Made by a program: the position numbers and the translations under genes
DNA from: Candidatus Kaiserbacteria bacterium RIFCSPHIGHO2_02_FULL_55_25
GTDB lineage: Bacteria > Patescibacteriota > Minisyncoccia > Phycocordibacterales > UBA2100
Length of the DNA: 50,941 nt
Direction: 5' to 3'
Assembly: GCA_001781335.1 (NCBI GenBank)
Contig: MFLL01000015.1
Coordinates: 1-50,941, forward strand
Notes under the pieces: model-generated
Told to the model about the DNA's origin: nothing
Databases searched by the model: none
Seen by the model: the letters and a program-made list of their open reading frames with translations, nothing else
Part shown: positions 6,547 through 50,645 of the stretch, one piece after another
Position numbering within the stretch: position 1 is the first letter of the stretch
How the letters are laid out: the number at the start of each line of letters is the position of its first letter

Positions 6547-7668
6547 TTACTGAACGAGGGTCGACGTCCCGCCGGCGATTCTGTTCACCGTGTACTCTGC
6601 GGCGGTCAGGTCACCATTCTCATCGAACTCTATGTGGCCCGAGACCCCGTCGTACTTCGTGGCGCGTATCGCATCGGCAAGCTTATCGGGGTCGGTACCG
6701 GCTGTTTTCAGAGCCTGAGCGATGATGTAGACCGCGTCGTATGCCTGCGGCGCTCCGATTGGTACTTGGTCCCCTCCTGTCTTCGTCAGAAGTTTCGCCT
6801 TGAACGATTCGGGTGAACTGGCCTTGCCGGTCGTGTAGAGCAGGTCAAGCCCGAGACCGTTCACGTCTTTGTAGAGTTGCGGATCGCCCCAAGCGTCGGC
6901 TCCGAGGAACTTGGTTTTGATACCAAGCTCCTTCGCCTGCTTCAAAAGCGCAGTGCCTCCTTCCGGATAGGTCGGGGAGTATATGTAATCTGGATTCGCG
7001 GCCTTCGTTTTCGACAGGTCCGTGCGATAGTCGCGTGCGATCTGAGGCTCCCCGTTCTCGGCGACTATCTGACCTCCGAGTTCCTTGAAGCGAGCCTCGA
7101 ATATCTCTTTGATACCGGTGCCCCAGTCGCTGATGTGATAGATAACCGCGATCTTGCGTGCGCCGAGCGTGTTGTACGCATATTCCGCCGCGAACTTACC
7201 CTGGTACGCGTCGGAAGGATAATTTCTGAAGAAGTACTTCCCCGTCTTGCTCAGGTTCGGCGCCGAAGACGCCGGAGAAAAAACAATGACCTTGCTCTGC
7301 ATCGCCCCGGGTGCGAATGTCGCGGTCTCGGTGGAACAGAGGCCGCCGATAATCGCTACCACTTTGTCGGCGTTGATAAGTTTGTTTGCGGCGCTGCTCG
7401 CCGGCGTGGCGGCGCACTGGCCGTCTTCATAGATGACGCTGAGCTGCCTTCCATTTATGCCCCCGCTCTGATTTACTTCATCAACGGCGATTTCGATTGC
7501 CACCTTATCTATCGTTCCGATAGAAGCCGCGTCTCCTGTGAGCGGCAAAATGGATCCAATCTTAATTGGTCCTGTTTCGGTGAGAGCCGAGTCGTCGTTC
7601 TTGCTGAGGCCCCACCATCCGAGACCGATAATGATAATCGCAACGATTGCCCATCCGAGTTTATTCAT
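6547..7668 (-). CDS. livK: Periplasmic-type substrate-binding protein of the Liv transporter
   Basis: This 373-aa type I ligand-binding protein (Peripla_BP_6 fold) has an N-terminal anchor (residues 5-20, AIVAIIIIGLGWWGL) with no lipobox cysteine. It is thus held by an uncleaved membrane helix or signal. KIGSILPLTGDAASIG starts the mature domain; two cysteines (GQCAAT, GGLCSTE) probably form the usual disulfide. The ligand could be Leu/Ile/Val or another amino acid or amide. The leader carries two CTANNNN heptads (7675-7688). Confidence 0.88.
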   Translation of the reverse strand: MNKLGWAIVAIIIIGLGWWGLSKNDDSALTETGPIKIGSILPLTGDAASIGTIDKVAIEIAVDEVNQSGGINGRQLSVIYEDGQCAATPASSAANKLINADKVVAIIGGLCSTETATFAPGAMQSKVIVFSPASSAPNLSKTGKYFFRNYPSDAYQGKFAAEYAYNTLGARKIAVIYHISDWGTGIKEIFEARFKELGGQIVAENGEPQIARDYRTDLSKTKAANPDYIYSPTYPEGGTALLKQAKELGIKTKFLGADAWGDPQLYKDVNGLGLDLLYTTGKASSPESFKAKLLTKTGGDQVPIGAPQAYDAVYIIAQALKTAGTDPDKLADAIRATKYDGVSGHIEFDENGDLTAAEYTVNRIAGGTSTLVQ

Positions 7669-7706
7669 AGACCCCTGTTAGTAGTTAGTTTTTAAGACCA
7701 CGGTAC

Positions 7707-29683: not shown

Positions 29684-31024
29684 TTATTCGGCGTCTTTTT
29701 CTTTTGATTCGTCGGTTGATTCCTGTTGTTCTTCCACTTTCTCCGATGCTACATCGCGGTCTTGGGCGACGGGGTCGATACCTTTCTCGCCCGTGTCGGC
29801 GGCCTCATCGTCGGCGCCCATTTCTTTCTTTGTTTCCTCAAACGCGCTTTCTTTTTCGGTGATGTCTTCCACGTCGGTCGGCTGTACGGCGGGCTTCGCT
29901 TCGCCCGTCTCCACCGCGAGCGCTTCGCCGCCCGTGCTGCGGATATCAATCTTCCATCCCGTGAGACGCGCGGCCAAGCGGACGTTCTGGCCGCCGCGGC
30001 CGATTGCGAGCGACTGCTGGTCTTCGGCGACCTGCACAACGGCGCGGTTCTCGGATTCGAAGAGTTCGATGCCGATGACCTGCGCGGGCTTGAGCGCCTC
30101 CTTCACATAGTCGCCGGTATTTTCGGACCACTCGACGACGTCTATCTTCTCACCGCCGAGCTCCGATGTGACGACTGCGACGCGTACGCCGCGCTGGCCG
30201 ACCAGTGCGCCGACAGGGTCGACGTGGCCGTCATTTGAAAATACGGCAATCTTGGCGCGGCTACCCGGCTCGCGGACGATGCCTTTGACTTCGACAACGC
30301 CCGAGGCCATTTCCGGCACTTCGGTCTCGAACAATTTCGTGAGGAAGCGCGGGTGCGAGCGCGAGAGACGGATGAATGTACCGCGTACGCCTTCGTCAAC
30401 ACGCAGTAAGAGTGCGCGCACGCGCTCGCCCTGTCGGTAGCGTTCGCCGGGGATTTGTTCGTCGTAGGGGAGTATCGCGGTCGCGCGGCCGAGGTCGACA
30501 AACAGGTTGCCGCGCTCGAAGCGCTGGACGTGGCCGGTGACGATTTCGCCTTCGCGCGCGCCGTATTCGGTGATGATGCTCGCGCGCTCCGCTTCGCGGA
30601 CCTTCTGCATGATGACCTGCTTCGCGGCTTGTGCGGCGATGCGGCCGAAATCCTCTTTGGCTTCTAGCGGGAACGAGACCTCCTCGTCGAGTACCGCGTC
30701 TTTTTTGATGCGGCGCGCGTCTTCTATCATTATGTGCTGTTCCGGATTGAAGCGGCTGCGTTCGTCGCTTTCACCGGCCGATTCCTCGTCTTCGCCGCGT
30801 ACGAGCGTGGAATCAACAACGATTTTTGCCTGTCGGAATTCCATGTCGCCGGTCTCGGGATTGAATGTCGCACGAATAATCTGCCCGCGTTTGCCGTATT
30901 CGCGGCGGTACGCCGCGGCGAGTGCTGTCGCGAGCGCATCGACGACCGACTCGCGCGAAATACCGCGCTCGGTCTGCAGCTCGTCGAGAGCCGAGTTCAA
31001 TGATTTGAGGTCGAATAGGGCCAT
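29684..31024 (-). CDS. nusA: Transcription termination/antitermination factor NusA
   Basis: This 446-aa protein has the RNA-polymerase-binding N-domain (1-130), an S1 domain (GEIVTGHVQRFERGNLFVDLGRATAILPYDEQ) and two KH domains (DPVGALVGQRGVRVAVV; LAIGRGGQNVRLAARLTGWKIDI). It ends in an acidic Glu/Asp-rich tail of about 80 residues in place of the E. coli acidic repeats. It modulates pausing and hairpin termination. Its own leader carries an intrinsic terminator and five 7-nt repeats. Confidence 0.94.
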   Translation of the reverse strand: MALFDLKSLNSALDELQTERGISRESVVDALATALAAAYRREYGKRGQIIRATFNPETGDMEFRQAKIVVDSTLVRGEDEESAGESDERSRFNPEQHIMIEDARRIKKDAVLDEEVSFPLEAKEDFGRIAAQAAKQVIMQKVREAERASIITEYGAREGEIVTGHVQRFERGNLFVDLGRATAILPYDEQIPGERYRQGERVRALLLRVDEGVRGTFIRLSRSHPRFLTKLFETEVPEMASGVVEVKGIVREPGSRAKIAVFSNDGHVDPVGALVGQRGVRVAVVTSELGGEKIDVVEWSENTGDYVKEALKPAQVIGIELFESENRAVVQVAEDQQSLAIGRGGQNVRLAARLTGWKIDIRSTGGEALAVETGEAKPAVQPTDVEDITEKESAFEETKKEMGADDEAADTGEKGIDPVAQDRDVASEKVEEQQESTDESKEKDAE

Positions 31025-31025
31025 A

Positions 31026-31060
31026 AAGATAGGGACTAGGTGTTAGGGAATAGGGATTAG
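31026..31060 (-). repeat. Five tandem heptads before the nusA start codon
   Basis: On the minus strand: CTAATCC, CTATTCC, CTAACAC, CTAGTCC and CTATCTT, each exactly 7 nt, then T and the ATG. No Shine-Dalgarno sequence is present. Confidence 0.8.
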
Positions 31061-31071
31061 TAAAGCCTTTT

Positions 31072-31096
31072 AAAAAAAGCGTCCGCCAACGGCGGA
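31072..31096 (-). terminator. Attenuator-like terminator in the nusA leader
   Basis: TCCGCC/GGCGGA (6-bp stem, 3-nt loop, 31082-31096) is followed on the minus strand by GC and seven T. It lies 13 nt after the nusA -10 box and before the heptads, so it should end transcription early unless passed. Confidence 0.75.
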
Positions 31097-32042: not shown

Positions 32043-32048
32043 TATAAT
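32043..32048 (+). promoter_or_regulatory. pilB -10 element (extended)
   Basis: TGCTATAAT (TATAAT at 32043-32048) is an extended -10. Transcription from here would start about 32055, so the heptad array forms the whole leader of pilB. Confidence 0.6.
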
Positions 32049-32055
32049 TGTGTTT

Positions 32056-32104
32056 CTAGAACCTAACACCTAGTCCCTAGTCCCTAGTCCCTAGTCCCTA
32101 TCCA
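32056..32104 (+). repeat. Seven tandem heptads before pilB
   Basis: CTAGAAC, CTAACAC, four copies of CTAGTCC, then CTATCCA, without gaps, followed by T and the ATG at 32106. CTAACAC and CTAGTCC are the same units as in the nusA leader. Confidence 0.85.
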
Positions 32105-32105
32105 T

Positions 32106-33845
32106 ATGTACATTTCGGACACACATCTGAAGTCATTTCTCGCCGATGCGGGGCTGGTCTCGCAGAAGGATTTTGATTCTGCGGAAAAAGAGGCCAAGGA
32201 GAGTGGCCGTCCGGTCGGCGAAATTCTTACATCCAAAAACGCGATAGGCGAAGACGAATTGCGCCGTACGTACGCGTACATCCTCGGTATCCCGTTCGTC
32301 TCACTGATGGGGACAACGATTAAGTACGAAACCCTCTCGCTCATTCCCGAACCGGTCGCTCGGCGCAACAATATCATCGCGTACAACCATCGCGGCGACG
32401 AACTCGAAGTGGCGATGCTTGACACCGACGACCTCGCGGCAATTGATTTCATCAAGAAAAAGACGCGTCTCAAGGTGCTCGCGCGCCTCACCGATGCGGC
32501 CTCGGTAAAAACAGCGCTCAAGCAGTATCAGCAGGGACTCAAAGACAATCTCGGCGACGTGATACAGCGTGAGACGGCGGCGCTCGAGAAGATTGCCGGC
32601 GGCGACAAAGAAGAAGACATCCGCCAACTCGCCGAGGGAGTGCCGGCGGTGCGAATTGTCGACACGCTCCTGCGTCACGCCAATGCGCAAGGCGCATCCG
32701 ACATCCACATCGAGCCGCTCGAAGACTCGCTCATCATCCGCTACCGCATCGACGGCATTTTGCACGACGCGATGGAACTGCCCAAGCATGCGGCCCCCGC
32801 TATCACGGCGCGCATCAAGGTGCTCGCCAACATGCGTCTCGACGAACACCGTCTGCCGCAAGACGGACGCTTCGGCACCGAATCCGGCGGCGAGCGCGTC
32901 TCGCTCCGCGTCTCCGTGTTGCCGACGTACTACGGTGAAAAAATCGTCATGCGACTTTTGCGCGACTCGGTGTCCGGATTTACGCTCGAGAGTATCGGCT
33001 TCCACGGTATCGCGCTCGACCGAATGCACGATGCGATGAAGAAGACGACCGGCATGGTGCTCTCCTGCGGTCCCACCGGCGCCGGAAAATCCACCACGCT
33101 CTACACGCTCCTCGATATCGTAAACACGCCCGACGTGAACATCTCAACTATTGAAGACCCGATTGAATACCAGATGCAGCGCGTCAATCAGACGCAGGTG
33201 CGGCCGGAGATAGGGTTCACGTTTGCCAACGGTCTGCGGAGCCTCGTGCGTCAGGACCCGGACATCGTCATGGTCGGCGAAATCCGCGACAAAGAGACCG
33301 CCAATCTCGCCATCAACGCCGCACTCACCGGTCACCTGGTACTTTCCACGTTGCATACCAATTCCGCTGCAGGTGCGGTGGCGCGACTCATCGACATGGG
33401 TGTCGAGCCGTTCCTCCTCGTCTCCACGCTTCGCGTCATCGTAGGTCAACGCCTCGTACGCCGGCTGTGTGCGGACCGCGAACCGTACGAACTTTCGCGC
33501 GACGAGCAGGCGCAGCTCGACAAGGTGGTGGATGCGGGCGCGGTCCTCAAAGGTCTCAAAGACGAAAAGGCTGTCGCAAAAGATGCGACATGGAAAAATA
33601 TTCCGTTCTACAAACCGAAAGAAGGCGGGCAAAGCCCAAGCGGGTATTCGGGCCGCATCGGCATCTATGAAGTGCTGCCGGTGACATCGACGATAAAGGA
33701 GCTAGTGATAGGTAACGCGACGGGGGATGCCATCGAAGCGCAGGCGCGCAAAGAGGGGATGCTCACCATGAGCGAGGACGGTATATTCAGAGCAGCCCAA
33801 GGAACAACGACGATTGAAGAAGTTCTCCGCGTCATCACCGAATAG
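32106..33845 (+). CDS. pilB: Type IV pilus assembly ATPase PilB
   Basis: This 579-aa GspE/PilB-family hexameric ATPase powers pilus extension. It has an N-terminal GspE-N domain (1-150), Walker A GPTGAGKST (about 322), the Asp box STIEDPIEYQ, Walker B VRQDPDIVMVGEIRD and the His box STLHTNSA. The zinc tetracysteine usual in this family is reduced to one Cys (RRLCADREPY); the stretch before SGRIGIYEVLPV lacks the others. It heads the pilus cluster. Confidence 0.93.
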   Translation: MYISDTHLKSFLADAGLVSQKDFDSAEKEAKESGRPVGEILTSKNAIGEDELRRTYAYILGIPFVSLMGTTIKYETLSLIPEPVARRNNIIAYNHRGDELEVAMLDTDDLAAIDFIKKKTRLKVLARLTDAASVKTALKQYQQGLKDNLGDVIQRETAALEKIAGGDKEEDIRQLAEGVPAVRIVDTLLRHANAQGASDIHIEPLEDSLIIRYRIDGILHDAMELPKHAAPAITARIKVLANMRLDEHRLPQDGRFGTESGGERVSLRVSVLPTYYGEKIVMRLLRDSVSGFTLESIGFHGIALDRMHDAMKKTTGMVLSCGPTGAGKSTTLYTLLDIVNTPDVNISTIEDPIEYQMQRVNQTQVRPEIGFTFANGLRSLVRQDPDIVMVGEIRDKETANLAINAALTGHLVLSTLHTNSAAGAVARLIDMGVEPFLLVSTLRVIVGQRLVRRLCADREPYELSRDEQAQLDKVVDAGAVLKGLKDEKAVAKDATWKNIPFYKPKEGGQSPSGYSGRIGIYEVLPVTSTIKELVIGNATGDAIEAQARKEGMLTMSEDGIFRAAQGTTTIEEVLRVITE

Positions 33846-34936: not shown

Positions 34937-36154
34937 ATGAAGTTCGTATACACCGCCGAAAAAAGCGATGGCGAAGTCTACAAAGGAATCGCGGAAGCCG
35001 CGGACCGCTTCGAGCTCTACGGCGTCGTGCGCCGCGAGGGCGGGAGAATAATTTCTGTTGGAGAAGACACGAGGAGCAGTTGGCTCAGTATCGGCTATTG
35101 GAACGCCAAACTCACGTCGGTAAAAGAGATGGACAAAATACTCATGGCGCGCAATCTCGGCGCCATGCTCGGGGCGGGATTGAGCCTTGCCCGCGCGCTC
35201 GCAGTACTCGAGCGGCAGACCAAGAACCTGCGTCTGTGTGCCGCCATCTCACAGGTCGCAAGCGACGTGCGGCGGGGCGAGACCCTGCATGCGTCACTCG
35301 CAAAATTCCCGCGTGTCTTTTCAAATCTGTTTATCGCCATGGTGCGCTCCGGCGAGGAGAGCGGCACGTTGCCGGATGCGCTCAAGGTGACCTCGGACCA
35401 GATGGAGCGCATGTATGACCTCAAGAAGAAGATACGCGGCGCGATGATATACCCGAGCATTATTCTCGTCGCAATCATCGGTATCGGTATTCTCATGATG
35501 ATATACGTGGTACCGACGCTTGCGCAGACGTTTGCCGAAATGAATGCGAAGTTGCCGACTTCCACGCTCGTCGTCATCGGTATCAGCAATTTCCTCGTGC
35601 AATACACCACGCTCGCCATCGGACTCATTTTCGGCGTAATCGCTTTCTTCTACGTGGGCGTACGCACGCGGATGGGAAAGCGGACGGGTGATTTTATTTT
35701 TCTCCACACGCCGGTCATCGGGGAGATGGTGCGCGAAGTGAATGCCGCACGCACATCGCGCACACTCGCATCGCTCATCGCCTCGGGCGTGGACGTGATG
35801 ACCGCGCTCGATATCGTCCGAGAGGTCGTGCAGAACACATATTTTCAGGAGGTTCTGGAGTCGGCAAAAACGGCCGTAGGACAGGGTGAGCCGCTCTCCG
35901 CCGCGTTCGTCAGACGTGAAGACCTGTATCCGCCCTTCGTCGGCGAGATGATGGCGGTCGGTGAAGAGACGGGTCAGACGTCGGAGATGTTGAAACGTCT
36001 CGCCGTGTATTACGAAGAGGAGGTGGACCGCAAAACAAAAGACATGTCGACGATTATCGAGCCGTTTCTCATGGTCATCATCGGCGGAGCGGTCGGATTT
36101 TTTGCGGTTTCGATGATAACTCCCATCTACTCTCTTTCGCAGACAATCAATTAG
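34937..36154 (+). CDS. pilC: Type IV pilus inner-membrane platform protein PilC
   Basis: This 405-aa protein has two T2SF (GspF) domains, about 65-190 and 270-395, each with ARNLGAMLGAGLSLARAL-like and SRTLASLIASGVDVMTALDIV helices and GEESGTLPDAL / GEETGQTSEML motifs. Three membrane helices are near 168-190, 215-240 and 375-398. It anchors PilB and passes pilins to the fibre. TATAAT (34924-34929) ends 7 nt before the ATG, so the mRNA is likely leaderless. Confidence 0.93.
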   Translation: MKFVYTAEKSDGEVYKGIAEAADRFELYGVVRREGGRIISVGEDTRSSWLSIGYWNAKLTSVKEMDKILMARNLGAMLGAGLSLARALAVLERQTKNLRLCAAISQVASDVRRGETLHASLAKFPRVFSNLFIAMVRSGEESGTLPDALKVTSDQMERMYDLKKKIRGAMIYPSIILVAIIGIGILMMIYVVPTLAQTFAEMNAKLPTSTLVVIGISNFLVQYTTLAIGLIFGVIAFFYVGVRTRMGKRTGDFIFLHTPVIGEMVREVNAARTSRTLASLIASGVDVMTALDIVREVVQNTYFQEVLESAKTAVGQGEPLSAAFVRREDLYPPFVGEMMAVGEETGQTSEMLKRLAVYYEEEVDRKTKDMSTIIEPFLMVIIGGAVGFFAVSMITPIYSLSQTIN

Positions 36155-36236
36155 TGCGTAGAACGTAGTTCGTAGTACGTAGATATCATGACAACTCTCC
36201 TGGATTCACTACGTACTACGTTCTACTGGCTACAAA
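36155..36236. repeat. Two opposed heptad arrays before the large pilin gene
   Basis: Minus strand (36155-36182): CTACGTA, CTACGAA, CTACGTT, CTACGCA. Plus strand (36209-36236): CTACGTA, CTACGTT, CTACTGG, CTACAAA, then CT and a GTG codon at 36239. The two arrays can pair into a hairpin with a 26-nt loop. The first array begins directly after the pilC stop. Confidence 0.8.
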
Positions 36237-36238
36237 CT

Positions 36239-37972
36239 GTGCGCCGCGGTTCCCGTGGCGTCACGCTCATAGACACACTGGTCGCCACTTCGCTCATGGT
36301 GCTCATATTTATGGGCATCTTCGGCGCGTTCCAGCTTTCGGTGGATGTCGTAACCAACAACAAGGCGCGGGCCGGCGCCGTCGCATTGGCTGACGAGCGC
36401 ATGGAATATCTCCGCTCGCTGCCGTACTCGTCCCTTGGAACCGTGGGCGGCATTCCTGCGGGCTCGCTCGCACAAACGGAATCTGTCTCGCTCAACGGCG
36501 TCAACTACACGCGCCGCACGCTTGTCGTGTATGCCGACGACCCCAAAGACGGCGCTGGCGGGAGTGATACGACGGGTATCGCGGATTACAAAGCGGTGAA
36601 AGTGAATGTTTCATGGAGCTCGCGAACGGGCCAGCGCGACTTGTATCTCGTGTCGCGTTTTGAGCCGTTGAGCGGTCTTGAGTCGGCAGTTTCCGGCGGC
36701 ACACTCGTTATTAACGTGGTGAACGCAAACAGCCAGCCGGTGAGTAGCGCGCAAGTTACCGTCACGAACACGTCCGTCTCGCCGGCGGTAAATCTCACGA
36801 CATACACCAACACGAGCGGCGTCGTTACCCTCGTCGGCACTCCCGCCGCGACAAACTATGCCGTCGTCGCCACAAAGGGCGGCTACTCCACAGCGCAGAC
36901 GTACCCCTCGACTCCTTCGAATCCCAACCCGTCGCCCGCAAATCTTACTGTCTCCAACAACCAAACGACGTCGGCGACGTTTGCCATCGACCTGCTTTCG
37001 AGCATGACCGTCAGTACATATTCGCTCTCGACGGGAACGTGGCAGGATTCGTTCGGTGACAACAGCAAAATCGGCGAAGGAACGGATTACATGGAGGCCG
37101 CCGGCAATCAAGCACGGCTCGAAGGCAATCAGCCGTGGACGAGGCCGGGGGAACTCCGCTCCATTCCCATCACGCCGGTCGCGCTCTCGCGATGGGGAAT
37201 ATTCTCGTGGAACGACACCCGGCCGTCTCAGACCACCATCACCTACCACGTCTACTATCCGAGCGGTGGCTCGCTCGCACTCGTCCCCGATTCGGTGCTT
37301 GCGGGGAACAGTACCGGATATGCGACGGAAACGCAGACATCGGTAGACTTGAGTGCGATATCCGCCGCATTGTATCCGACGCTTGTGCTCGGTGCGCATC
37401 TTGTCGCCCAAGACCCGAACGCGCCCTCGCCCTCGATTCAGGATTGGAGCTTGACCTACGAGAGCGGTCAGGGGATATCCATCCCGTTCACCCTGCAGGG
37501 TGCAAAAGTCATCGGCAACGGTCCGCCGCTCGTCTACAAATACTCGCAAGTCATCACCACCAATCAAAGCGGCACCGCATCGTTGTCGAACATGGAATGG
37601 GATACATACACCATGTCAGTCAATTCTTCGACGGGGTACGACATCGCGTCGTCGTGCACACCACAACCGATTGTGCTCGCGCCGAACTCGACGGCGGCGA
37701 CGCTCCTGTACCTCTCGCCGCACACATCCAATTCGCTTCTTGTTGATGTGAAAAATACATCCGGCGCGTACCTCCCGGGCGCTCTCGTGCGGCTCACGAA
37801 AGGCGGCTCGTACGACCGGACAATCTATGCGGATGCGTGCGGGCAGGCATTCTTCTCCTCGCTCACCAACGGTTCGTATTCGATTTCTGTTTCAGCGAGC
37901 GGGTATCAGACGTACACGTCTTCGGGAGTAAACGTGTCGGGAGCCTCGCGTCTCTCGGCCATACTCAATTGA
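36239..37972 (+). CDS. Large pilin-like protein with carboxypeptidase-regulatory-like domains
   Basis: From the GTG start this is 577 aa. A class III prepilin leader, RRGSRG|VTLIDTLVATSLMVLIFMGIFGAFQL, is followed by two regions resembling CarboxypepD_reg domains (TLVINVVNANSQPVSSAQVTV and LLVDVKNTSGAYLPGALVRLTKGG, at the C-terminus) and a central beta-rich region. It is much longer than normal pilins and probably acts as a tip or adhesive minor pilin. An ATG at 36188 in frame would add 17 residues, but the short leader and the heptads ending at 36236 favour GTG. Confidence 0.75.
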   Translation: MRRGSRGVTLIDTLVATSLMVLIFMGIFGAFQLSVDVVTNNKARAGAVALADERMEYLRSLPYSSLGTVGGIPAGSLAQTESVSLNGVNYTRRTLVVYADDPKDGAGGSDTTGIADYKAVKVNVSWSSRTGQRDLYLVSRFEPLSGLESAVSGGTLVINVVNANSQPVSSAQVTVTNTSVSPAVNLTTYTNTSGVVTLVGTPAATNYAVVATKGGYSTAQTYPSTPSNPNPSPANLTVSNNQTTSATFAIDLLSSMTVSTYSLSTGTWQDSFGDNSKIGEGTDYMEAAGNQARLEGNQPWTRPGELRSIPITPVALSRWGIFSWNDTRPSQTTITYHVYYPSGGSLALVPDSVLAGNSTGYATETQTSVDLSAISAALYPTLVLGAHLVAQDPNAPSPSIQDWSLTYESGQGISIPFTLQGAKVIGNGPPLVYKYSQVITTNQSGTASLSNMEWDTYTMSVNSSTGYDIASSCTPQPIVLAPNSTAATLLYLSPHTSNSLLVDVKNTSGAYLPGALVRLTKGGSYDRTIYADACGQAFFSSLTNGSYSISVSASGYQTYTSSGVNVSGASRLSAILN

Positions 37973-40100: not shown

Positions 40101-40802
40101 ATGAATAAAACCGTTCGCTTGGCGTGTGTCGCCCTATCGACGGTCGCGCTTCTCGGCGTGAACGTCCGAATCCAGTGGCATCCAAACGCAGATATCCCCA
40201 CTGTCGGAGTGGGCTTCGCGATGAACGAGGCTAGTGCGGATATAGTTCCGCCACCGCCACCGCCACCGCCACCGCCACCGCCACCGCCACCGCCGCCTCC
40301 GCCTCCGCCGCCACCTCCTCCGCCGCCACCTCCTCCTCCGCCGCCACCTCCTCCTCCGCCGCCACCTCCGCCTCCGAAGCCGGAGCCGGTAAAGCCAAAG
40401 CAGGAGAATAGTGGCGGCAATCGGTCGAAGGTCGACGGAGCGAAGATGGCCACGGCAGCGCTCGTTTGTCTGGGCCTCAACGAAGGTCTTGACGCAGTTG
40501 CGAACCTGCCCCGCCCGACATTCGCTCGGGGCGTGTTCCGTAGCTTCACCTGCAACGGCGTTGCGGCGCTGGTCCCGGTCGGCGGTGTCGGCGGCGGACT
40601 GGTCGGCGGTGTCTTCGGCAAGGTCGGCTATGAGACGACGTTCGGTGTCGATGGGATGGTCACACACACCATCGACGACACGTGGAAATGTCAACCGAAC
40701 GATTTCCGTCCTCATTGCGCGATCTGGGTGCAGGAGCACCCCGTCGAGGTGCTGAAGACCAAGAAAAAGAAGAAGAAATTTGCACGTCGCCCGAGGCATT
40801 AG
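40101..40802 (+). CDS. Secreted protein with a 43-residue polyproline tract
   Basis: This 233-aa protein has a signal or anchor (LACVALSTVALLGVNV, 7-22), then 43 unbroken proline codons (40248-40376), a KPEPVKPK hinge and a C-terminal domain of about 140 aa. That domain has four cysteines, a Gly-rich hydrophobic stretch (AALVPVGGVGGGLVGGVFG) and a Lys-rich end. The tract could be a rigid rod across the cell wall. Translation would need EF-P. The domain is unrecognised. AAAGG lies 10 nt before the ATG. Confidence 0.7.
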   Translation: MNKTVRLACVALSTVALLGVNVRIQWHPNADIPTVGVGFAMNEASADIVPPPPPPPPPPPPPPPPPPPPPPPPPPPPPPPPPPPPPPPPPPPKPEPVKPKQENSGGNRSKVDGAKMATAALVCLGLNEGLDAVANLPRPTFARGVFRSFTCNGVAALVPVGGVGGGLVGGVFGKVGYETTFGVDGMVTHTIDDTWKCQPNDFRPHCAIWVQEHPVEVLKTKKKKKKFARRPRH

Positions 40803-50019: not shown

Positions 50020-50610
50020 TTATGTTGTTGCTTTCTCAAACCGTTGCTCGATTACACCCCAATTCAGGTTCTTGAAGAAGGCATCTACGTATTTGCCCTT
50101 GCCCGCGGCGCCATAATCCAGAATATACGTGTGTTCCCATACATCGAGCGCCAGAATGACGGGAAGTGTGACGAAATGCCCTTGATGCTGTTCGCCGGCA
50201 AAACCCATCTGGAACTGCTTGCCGGCCGGATCGTAGTAGAGAATCGCCCAGCCCGGACCACGTATGCCCGCAATCGCTTTCAGGTACTCGACGAAGTATC
50301 CGTGATATTCGGCGGAGAGAGCTTTTCCCAAACCGGATTGTTCGTCGAGTGCTTTTGACCCACCCTCAAATTGCGTGAAGTACAACTCGTGCAAACGCAT
50401 CCCGTCAAACTCAAAGGATTTACGGCGGACCAATTCCCCGAGCGCAATCGCGTTCTTTTCCGTGCTCTCCTTTGCGTACTCAACCAGCTTGGCGGAAATC
50501 GCATTGAAATTCTTCACGTACCCTTCGTAGAGGCCGATGTGCTGCTTGACCGACTCATCCGAGATGCCGTCGAGTGACGGCAGAGTAAACTTTTTCGCTG
50601 TGTATTCCAT
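50020..50610 (-). CDS. sodA: Fe/Mn superoxide dismutase
   Basis: This 196-aa enzyme removes superoxide. Metal ligands: His in KQHIGLYEGYVKN (about 23), His in MRLHELYFTQFEGG, and DVWEHTYILDYG (Asp and His). The length is normal. The start MEYTAKKF at 50610 lies directly after five 7-nt repeats, with no Shine-Dalgarno. It sits between the two halves of comEC, on the opposite strand. Confidence 0.93.
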   Translation of the reverse strand: MEYTAKKFTLPSLDGISDESVKQHIGLYEGYVKNFNAISAKLVEYAKESTEKNAIALGELVRRKSFEFDGMRLHELYFTQFEGGSKALDEQSGLGKALSAEYHGYFVEYLKAIAGIRGPGWAILYYDPAGKQFQMGFAGEQHQGHFVTLPVILALDVWEHTYILDYGAAGKGKYVDAFFKNLNWGVIEQRFEKATT

Positions 50611-50645
50611 ATACTGACAACTACAAACTAGCAACTAATAACTAT
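50611..50645 (-). repeat. Five tandem heptads directly before sodA
   Basis: On the minus strand: ATAGTTA, TTAGTTG, CTAGTTT, GTAGTTG, TCAGTAT, immediately followed by the ATG. Spacing is exactly 7 nt throughout. Confidence 0.8.

Follow-up and report, generated by a model that had tools for sequence, protein, structure and literature searches.

The window, which is the whole 50,941-nt stretch analyzed and contig 15 of the 868-kb genome (33 contigs; labelled G000) of Candidatus Kaiserbacteria bacterium RIFCSPHIGHO2_02_FULL_55_25, encodes a pilB/gspE-type secretion ATPase, a PilC/GspF protein, a type IV pilin-like protein, nusA, sodA, and a livK-like gene. Arrays of 7-nt units, CTANNNN or TAGNNNN, lie next to these genes. 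The pilB gene (32106–33845, + strand; TIGR02538, 1.4e-152; TIGR02533, 6.4e-153) is preceded by seven gapless CTANNNN units (32056–32104, +) that fill its predicted 5′ leader. A TATAAT −10-like box (32043–32048, +), 7 nt upstream of the array, places the predicted transcription start at the first unit. The array is followed by a T at 32105 and the ATG at 32106, a gap of 1 nt to the start codon. A reading made earlier from the sequence only had described these seven exact units, their distance to the ATG, and their beginning at the predicted RNA start, and all were confirmed. Its statement that every unit carries TAG, TAA, or TAC was wrong for the last pilB unit, which has TAT.

The nusA gene (29684–31024, − strand; TIGR01953, 6.3e-111) is led by five CTANNNN units (31026–31060, −) that end 1 nt before the ATG at 31024. 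Two of them, the ACAC and GTCC units, also occur in the pilB array, as had been noted. Homologous five-unit arrays precede nusA in three relatives. Most members of the genus carry a G+C-rich hairpin followed by a T-run upstream of the nusA leader (approximately 31061–31095 in the window, −), which looks like an attenuator and could serve NusA autoregulation. Two CTANNNN units followed by AGGGG (7675–7688, −) were found, as reported, before the livK-like gene (6547–7668, −), whose name is that given in the sequence-only reading; here 10 nt separate the last CTA from the ATG. Upstream of sodA (50020–50610, −; superoxide dismutase), a repeat is present as claimed, comprising four TAGNNNN units on the minus strand (50621–50644) and one CAG unit before the ATG at 50610. 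It does not share the pilB design, since its orientation is reversed.

The PilC/GspF gene (34937–36154, +) ends in a TAG stop codon at 36152–36154 that doubles as the first of five TAG cores in a TAGNNNN array (36152–36182, +). This array is the 5′ arm of a junction hairpin, and a four-unit CTANNNN array (36209–36236, +) is the 3′ arm. The second array lies 2 nt before a GTG at 36239, where the type IV pilin-like protein (36239–37972, +; weak N-terminal match to pseudopilin GspK) is predicted to begin. This start appears better placed than the ATG at 36188 because it yields a type IV pilin leader (MRRGSRG|VTLID) and the CTA array ends 2 nt upstream. The junction (36152–36241) folds with an MFE of −32.4 (z −4.4). 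The sequence-only reading had correctly seen an array here, but the one that ends at the pilin start is the separate CTA array; the TAG-type array at 36152–36182 starts at the pilC stop. No Rfam match was obtained for the window's arrays or for five stretches that bear arrays. The window also contains about seven copies of an 18-nt tandem repeat, CCGCCACCTCCTCCTCCG, at 40248–40376.

Abundance, make-up, and position of the arrays

The pattern CTAN4CTAN4CTA matches 17 times in the window versus 0.02 in shuffles, and 183 times in the 868-kb genome versus 10 for a backwards control pattern. When sampled G000 stretches were scanned for any three-base core in at least four non-coding copies, 47 degenerate arrays were found at period 7 and no more than six at each of the other periods scanned (5–15). 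Several relatives have the same excess at period 7 and others have no arrays; cores other than CTA (ATAC, AAATTCC, and AACTTC) are also used among relatives. At least one four-unit CTA match is present in 151 of the 287 genomes in the phylum sample. Mean lag-7 autocorrelation over all gene leaders was set aside as too weak a signal, since arrays occur in just ~6–8% of genes.

Common units are CTACGTT, CTACGTA, CTACGAA, and CTAACAA. The seventh base agrees more often within arrays than between them (0.70 vs 0.30). Neighboring units are no more similar than distant units of the same array, so a slippage-prone tuning region, the idea offered earlier, fits poorly as the main cause, though unit number does vary between species. 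Across four homologous nusA leaders that match in length (five units, T, ATG), the base is unchanged in 14 of 15 CTA columns versus 2 of 20 other columns, a contrast that is partly ascertained because these leaders were chosen for carrying arrays. Array leaders are G-poor (9% vs 23%) and weakly folded between −35 and +15 (mean MFE −3.3 vs −8.1 kcal/mol, p 2.5e-7). Provision of stop codons in three frames was rejected as a purpose: the coding strand of CTAC-type arrays contains no stop, and small open reading frames pass through them.

Genes were called with a home-made codon-usage caller on ~397 kb of G000 (~46% of the genome), with contigs partly chosen because they bear arrays, and on smaller samples of relatives. 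Offsets were counted from the last CTA to the start codon, so that the mode of 5 corresponds to NNNN plus 1 nt. Of the 32 CTA arrays in G000 whose next gene is on the same strand, 16 lie at offset 4–6 before it, whereas random placement in the same gaps gave a mean of 2.6 and a maximum of 9 in 5,000 runs. Across the order, 24 of 57 arrays lie at this offset versus 3.4 by random placement. A caller-free check, which required an ATG 3–7 nt after the last CTA that opens a frame of 40 codons or more, was positive for 19 of 51 G000 arrays and 17 of 71 arrays in other genomes of the order, with a peak at 5. The counts were 2 of 29 in Patescibacteria that bear an anti-Shine-Dalgarno (anti-SD) sequence and, for exact CTAGTCC arrays from other phyla, 6 of 312. 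Enrichment within 10 nt of start codons on the coding strand, which had been put forward as a check on the arrays, is thus present by both measures. Roughly half of the arrays show no lock to a start codon, and some lie away from genes. A scan of 85k genomes for exact CTAGTCCx3 gave matches in Acidobacteria, Cyanobacteria, Geomonas, and others. They were rejected as the same start signal, and are probably plain intergenic repeats, because they lack start anchoring.

Array-led genes and translation context

Arrays close to start codons lead four consecutive genes, atpE, atpH, atpA, and atpG, as well as the ribosomal-protein genes for S3, L16, S8, L15, L3, L23, L27, and S9. They also precede nusA, pilB, metK, ftsH, yebC, pth, VirB4-like genes, and others. 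TAG arrays precede genes resembling those for L24 and L5, identified from their first residues alone. Ribosomal-protein and ATP-synthase genes make up about half of the array-led list versus an assumed 7–12% of the sample. Array-led genes are mostly internal cistrons of these operons. Since the arrays are mostly intercistronic, they are not promoters, and any action would be at the RNA or translation level.

The 3′ end of the G000 16S rRNA has helix 45 followed by GTGGATTCATTCC in place of GGATCACCTCC, and CCUCC is absent. The same type of anti-SD loss is found in every member of the order with a readable 16S tail. The canonical tail is present in 148 of the 287 genomes of the phylum sample, and hardly any genome outside this order shows the altered pattern. 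Both tails occur in G217, a member of the order, perhaps from contamination. An initial tail search pattern, GYTGGATCA, was discarded as too loose. No Shine-Dalgarno (SD) peak was seen upstream of starts in sampled gene leaders, and the reported lack of an SD at array sites holds, with an SD-like 4-mer in the tested region of 0 of 26 CTA-array genes. The units carry no GGAATGAATCC-like stretch. No complement between arrays and the 16S tail was found, and pairing of the two was dropped. In the G000 sample, a −10-like hexamer ends 5–9 nt before the start in 67 of 349 ATG genes versus ~4 per 5-nt bin elsewhere; by such promoter placement, roughly one ATG gene in five (~20%) seems to lack a leader.

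The 16S rRNA gene of G000, on contig 4 (L046 1–1600), is split by a group I intron (1256–1540). It holds a further insert with an apparent homing-endonuclease-like open reading frame and ends in the tail GTGGATTCATTCC, without an anti-SD. A four-helix-bundle protein of the 23S rRNA intervening-sequence family (PF05635) is encoded at L051 9027–9395 and is led by a palindromic CTAGGTTCTAGCGG array.

Readings of the arrays

The best explanation, which we hold to be evenly poised between right and wrong, is that CTANNNN arrays are SD-independent leaders, that is, 5′ untranslated regions and intercistronic spacers, for cistrons that cannot be leaderless. They stand at sites where a gene could not start without a leader, or where a leader has taken the place of such a start. 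An array may offer the 30S subunit a repeated, unobstructed landing platform and so bring the start codon into the P site, with contact made either directly or via S1 or another RNA-binding protein touching ~7 nt per site. A TAG array at the upstream stop could pair with the CTA array and close the platform, which would reopen once the upstream gene, or a small open reading frame in the loop, is translated, giving coupling. A translation-start signal was one of three ideas in the sequence-only reading and is the best supported of them: the arrays are start-locked, stand within operons, occur in a genome with neither an SD signal nor an anti-SD, and favor ribosomal-protein and ATP-synthase cistrons. 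The leader reading explains where the arrays lie, their spacing and orientation, which genes they lead, their low structure, and why the core is conserved. It leaves unexplained the array-less genomes of the same genus, the rapid turnover, and the arrays that are not at starts.

A stronger form is tentative, and we would sooner doubt than accept it. In place of its lost anti-SD, this order may have evolved a dedicated signal, namely a leader of degenerate CTA heptads that the 30S subunit, or a protein associated with the ribosome, reads 7 nt at a time. Such a leader would mark the starts of leadered and internal cistrons and could be masked by a complementary TAG heptad at the upstream stop. 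In either form, the array is a concrete, sequence-defined candidate for how internal-cistron starts are found in bacteria without an anti-SD, with a fixed spacing to the start codon.

Relatives of G000 have genomes of 0.4–2 Mb. (In one of them, G006, the 20-kb stretch 80001–100000 of contig 5 is entirely N in the stored genome.) Arrays are absent from four genomes of the same genus (G001, G003, G019, and G024), so they are dispensable for translation without an SD. Orthologs of pilB without an array mostly have a −10 box 6–12 nt before the ATG and look leaderless, and atpA-atpG junctions without arrays are often tight TAA-N3-ATG couplings. Arrays therefore seem to stand where a gene has, or acquired, a leader, and look like later insertions. 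The array-less species of the genus serve as natural controls. Patescibacteria with a canonical anti-SD also carry heptad arrays, mostly away from starts, and the arrays and anti-SD loss are therefore separable.

The main rival to the leader reading is a junction-repeat process with partial co-option. In its plain form, which we consider somewhat unlikely, the arrays have no dedicated function. They would be repeats of mutational or mobile origin that survive only between genes and fill the stop-to-start space of a compact genome, the G-poor strand being what translation tolerates. The quick turnover of arrays between species of one genus favors this view, as does their occurrence away from genes and in anti-SD-bearing lineages. 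Other repeats take the same junctions in relatives: atpA-atpG in G010, G017, G021, and G023, the nusA leader in G007, and the pilB leader in G013. They are of CTTCGAC..CTCAGGATGTAAGA..CTAACTCG..CTCGTAA..CTAAC-ATG types that also end just before the ATG; further substitutes at the atpA-atpG, pilB, and nusA junctions are CTTCGAC..CTCAGGATG elements and ATAC or AAATTCC heptads. Among genomes of the same genus (G000–G024), split 16S genes go with more CTA arrays than intact ones, as if inserts were tolerated generally (p 0.004, uncorrected for relatedness; p 0.0008 with genomes whose 16S was not found classed as split). Many bacteria have an excess of heptamers, for which polymerase slippage has been proposed (PMC4692102). 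Against it stand the phase lock to the start codon, the retention of the CTA core versus other bases in homologous leaders, the lack of extra likeness between neighboring units, and the strong bias to ribosomal-protein and ATP-synthase cistrons.

Paired arrays suggest another function, which we judge clearly unlikely as a general one. A TAG array at a stop and a CTA array at the next start would be two arms of a hairpin setting coupling, attenuation, or RNA processing, and lone CTA arrays would be remnants. Reverse arrays tend to begin at the upstream stop, which supplies the first TAG in 10 of 34 of them, and TAG and CTA arrays together form a hairpin from that stop to the next start. Seven of ten paired junctions fold beyond shuffles at z −2.8 or lower (minimum −5.4), and two more reach −2.5 and −2.1, but the tenth shows no such folding (z 0.2). 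Upstream of VirB4-like genes, two junctions (L051 9977–10049 and 10740–10813) contain a near-identical small open reading frame (MQTQDTIQGIL..) that begins in the hairpin loop, crosses the CTA array, and stops at the array's last unit, leaving 3 nt to the following ATG. Its product is possibly a leader peptide for coupling. Against a general role, most start-locked arrays have no partner, including those of pilB, nusA, and the ribosomal-protein genes.

The sequence-only reading had also raised an RNA-binding array. A sequence-specific regulator (Csp, CsrA, S1-like, or other) binding one protein per heptad and defining a translational regulon is conceivable, yet we think it improbable. The 7-nt steps and conserved CTA would suit one site per unit, CspB binds heptamer repeats (cited in PMC4679880), and the shared seventh base makes arrays appear to come in recognizable types. 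However, the led genes are constitutive housekeeping genes with no obvious regulon. CsrA is unlikely because the units lack GGA. A Csp regulator is weakened, and a cold-shock protein was rejected as the obligatory binder, because cold-shock-domain genes were not found in the array-rich, nearly complete genomes G005, G014, G028, and G033. An operator or promoter part recognized as double-stranded DNA is very improbable: the pilB array does begin right after a −10 box and inverted array pairs exist, but arrays lie mostly between operon cistrons, are locked to the start codon rather than to a promoter, and have a −10-like hexamer 7 nt upstream in just 2 of 21 start-locked G000 cases.

Comparison with known heptamer systems

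Loss of the anti-SD in some members of the candidate phyla radiation is already published (PMC10783764). According to two surveys (PMC6107228, PMC10783764), organisms without CCUCC, including Candidatus Wolfebacteria, Campbellbacteria, and SR1, have lost both anti-SD and SD motifs and have leaderless or unstructured starts. The present order has likewise lost both motifs. The parts of those surveys consulted describe no replacement motif of the heptad-leader kind, and no description of heptad leaders in Patescibacteria was found in the open-access literature. A CTANNNN array differs from an SD site in being repeated, in having no complement to the 16S tail, and in residing in a host whose anti-SD is missing.

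The sequence-only reading knew of no described element like this one, but two share its geometry. In marine Beggiatoaceae, TAACTGA occurs as direct repeats of two to six copies, mostly directly upstream of start codons (MacGregor 2015, PMC4679880). These sets most often end 1 nt before the start, replace the SD, precede essential genes including those for ribosomal proteins, and are sometimes split by related 7-mers (PMC4679880). Flexibacter litoralis has a reverse-orientation TAACTGA set right after a stop codon (PMC4679880). CTANNNN arrays similarly are tandem 7-mers in non-coding sequence upstream of starts, run forward, most often end 1 nt before the start codon, and lead genes without an SD. 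Unlike the fixed TAACTGA heptamer, they consist of a CTA core, four variable bases, and an array-specific seventh base. They also differ in their frequent inverted pairs across junctions, their anti-SD-less genome, and their phylum-wide presence.

The heterogeneous GGGNATC and GGGGA(C/T)T heptamers of Xanthomonas and Nostoc lie at gene junctions with a preference for four units (Rehm 2015, PMC4692102). Their G-rich strand is the non-coding strand within 50 bp before open reading frames and the coding strand within 50 bp after stops; some overlap the stop codon, and inverted repeats occur (PMC4692102). A comparable flip in orientation separates start-side from stop-side CTANNNN arrays. In contrast to these G-quadruplex-forming units, most CTANNNN units have no G-run, and arrays lack four G-tracts: CTACGTT, CTACGTA, CTACGAA, and CTAACAA have a G-run on neither strand, and antisense GGG occurs only in CTAGTCC-type arrays. 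The Xanthomonas and Nostoc report gives distances of 0–50 bp without a lock to the start codon (PMC4692102), whereas CTANNNN arrays are start-locked. The CTANNNN arrays share the geometry of the Beggiatoaceae, Xanthomonas, and Nostoc repeats, and what is new is the core, its degeneracy, the pairing across junctions, and the anti-SD-less host. The common geometry links these scattered and unexplained reports of heptamer repeats at gene junctions.
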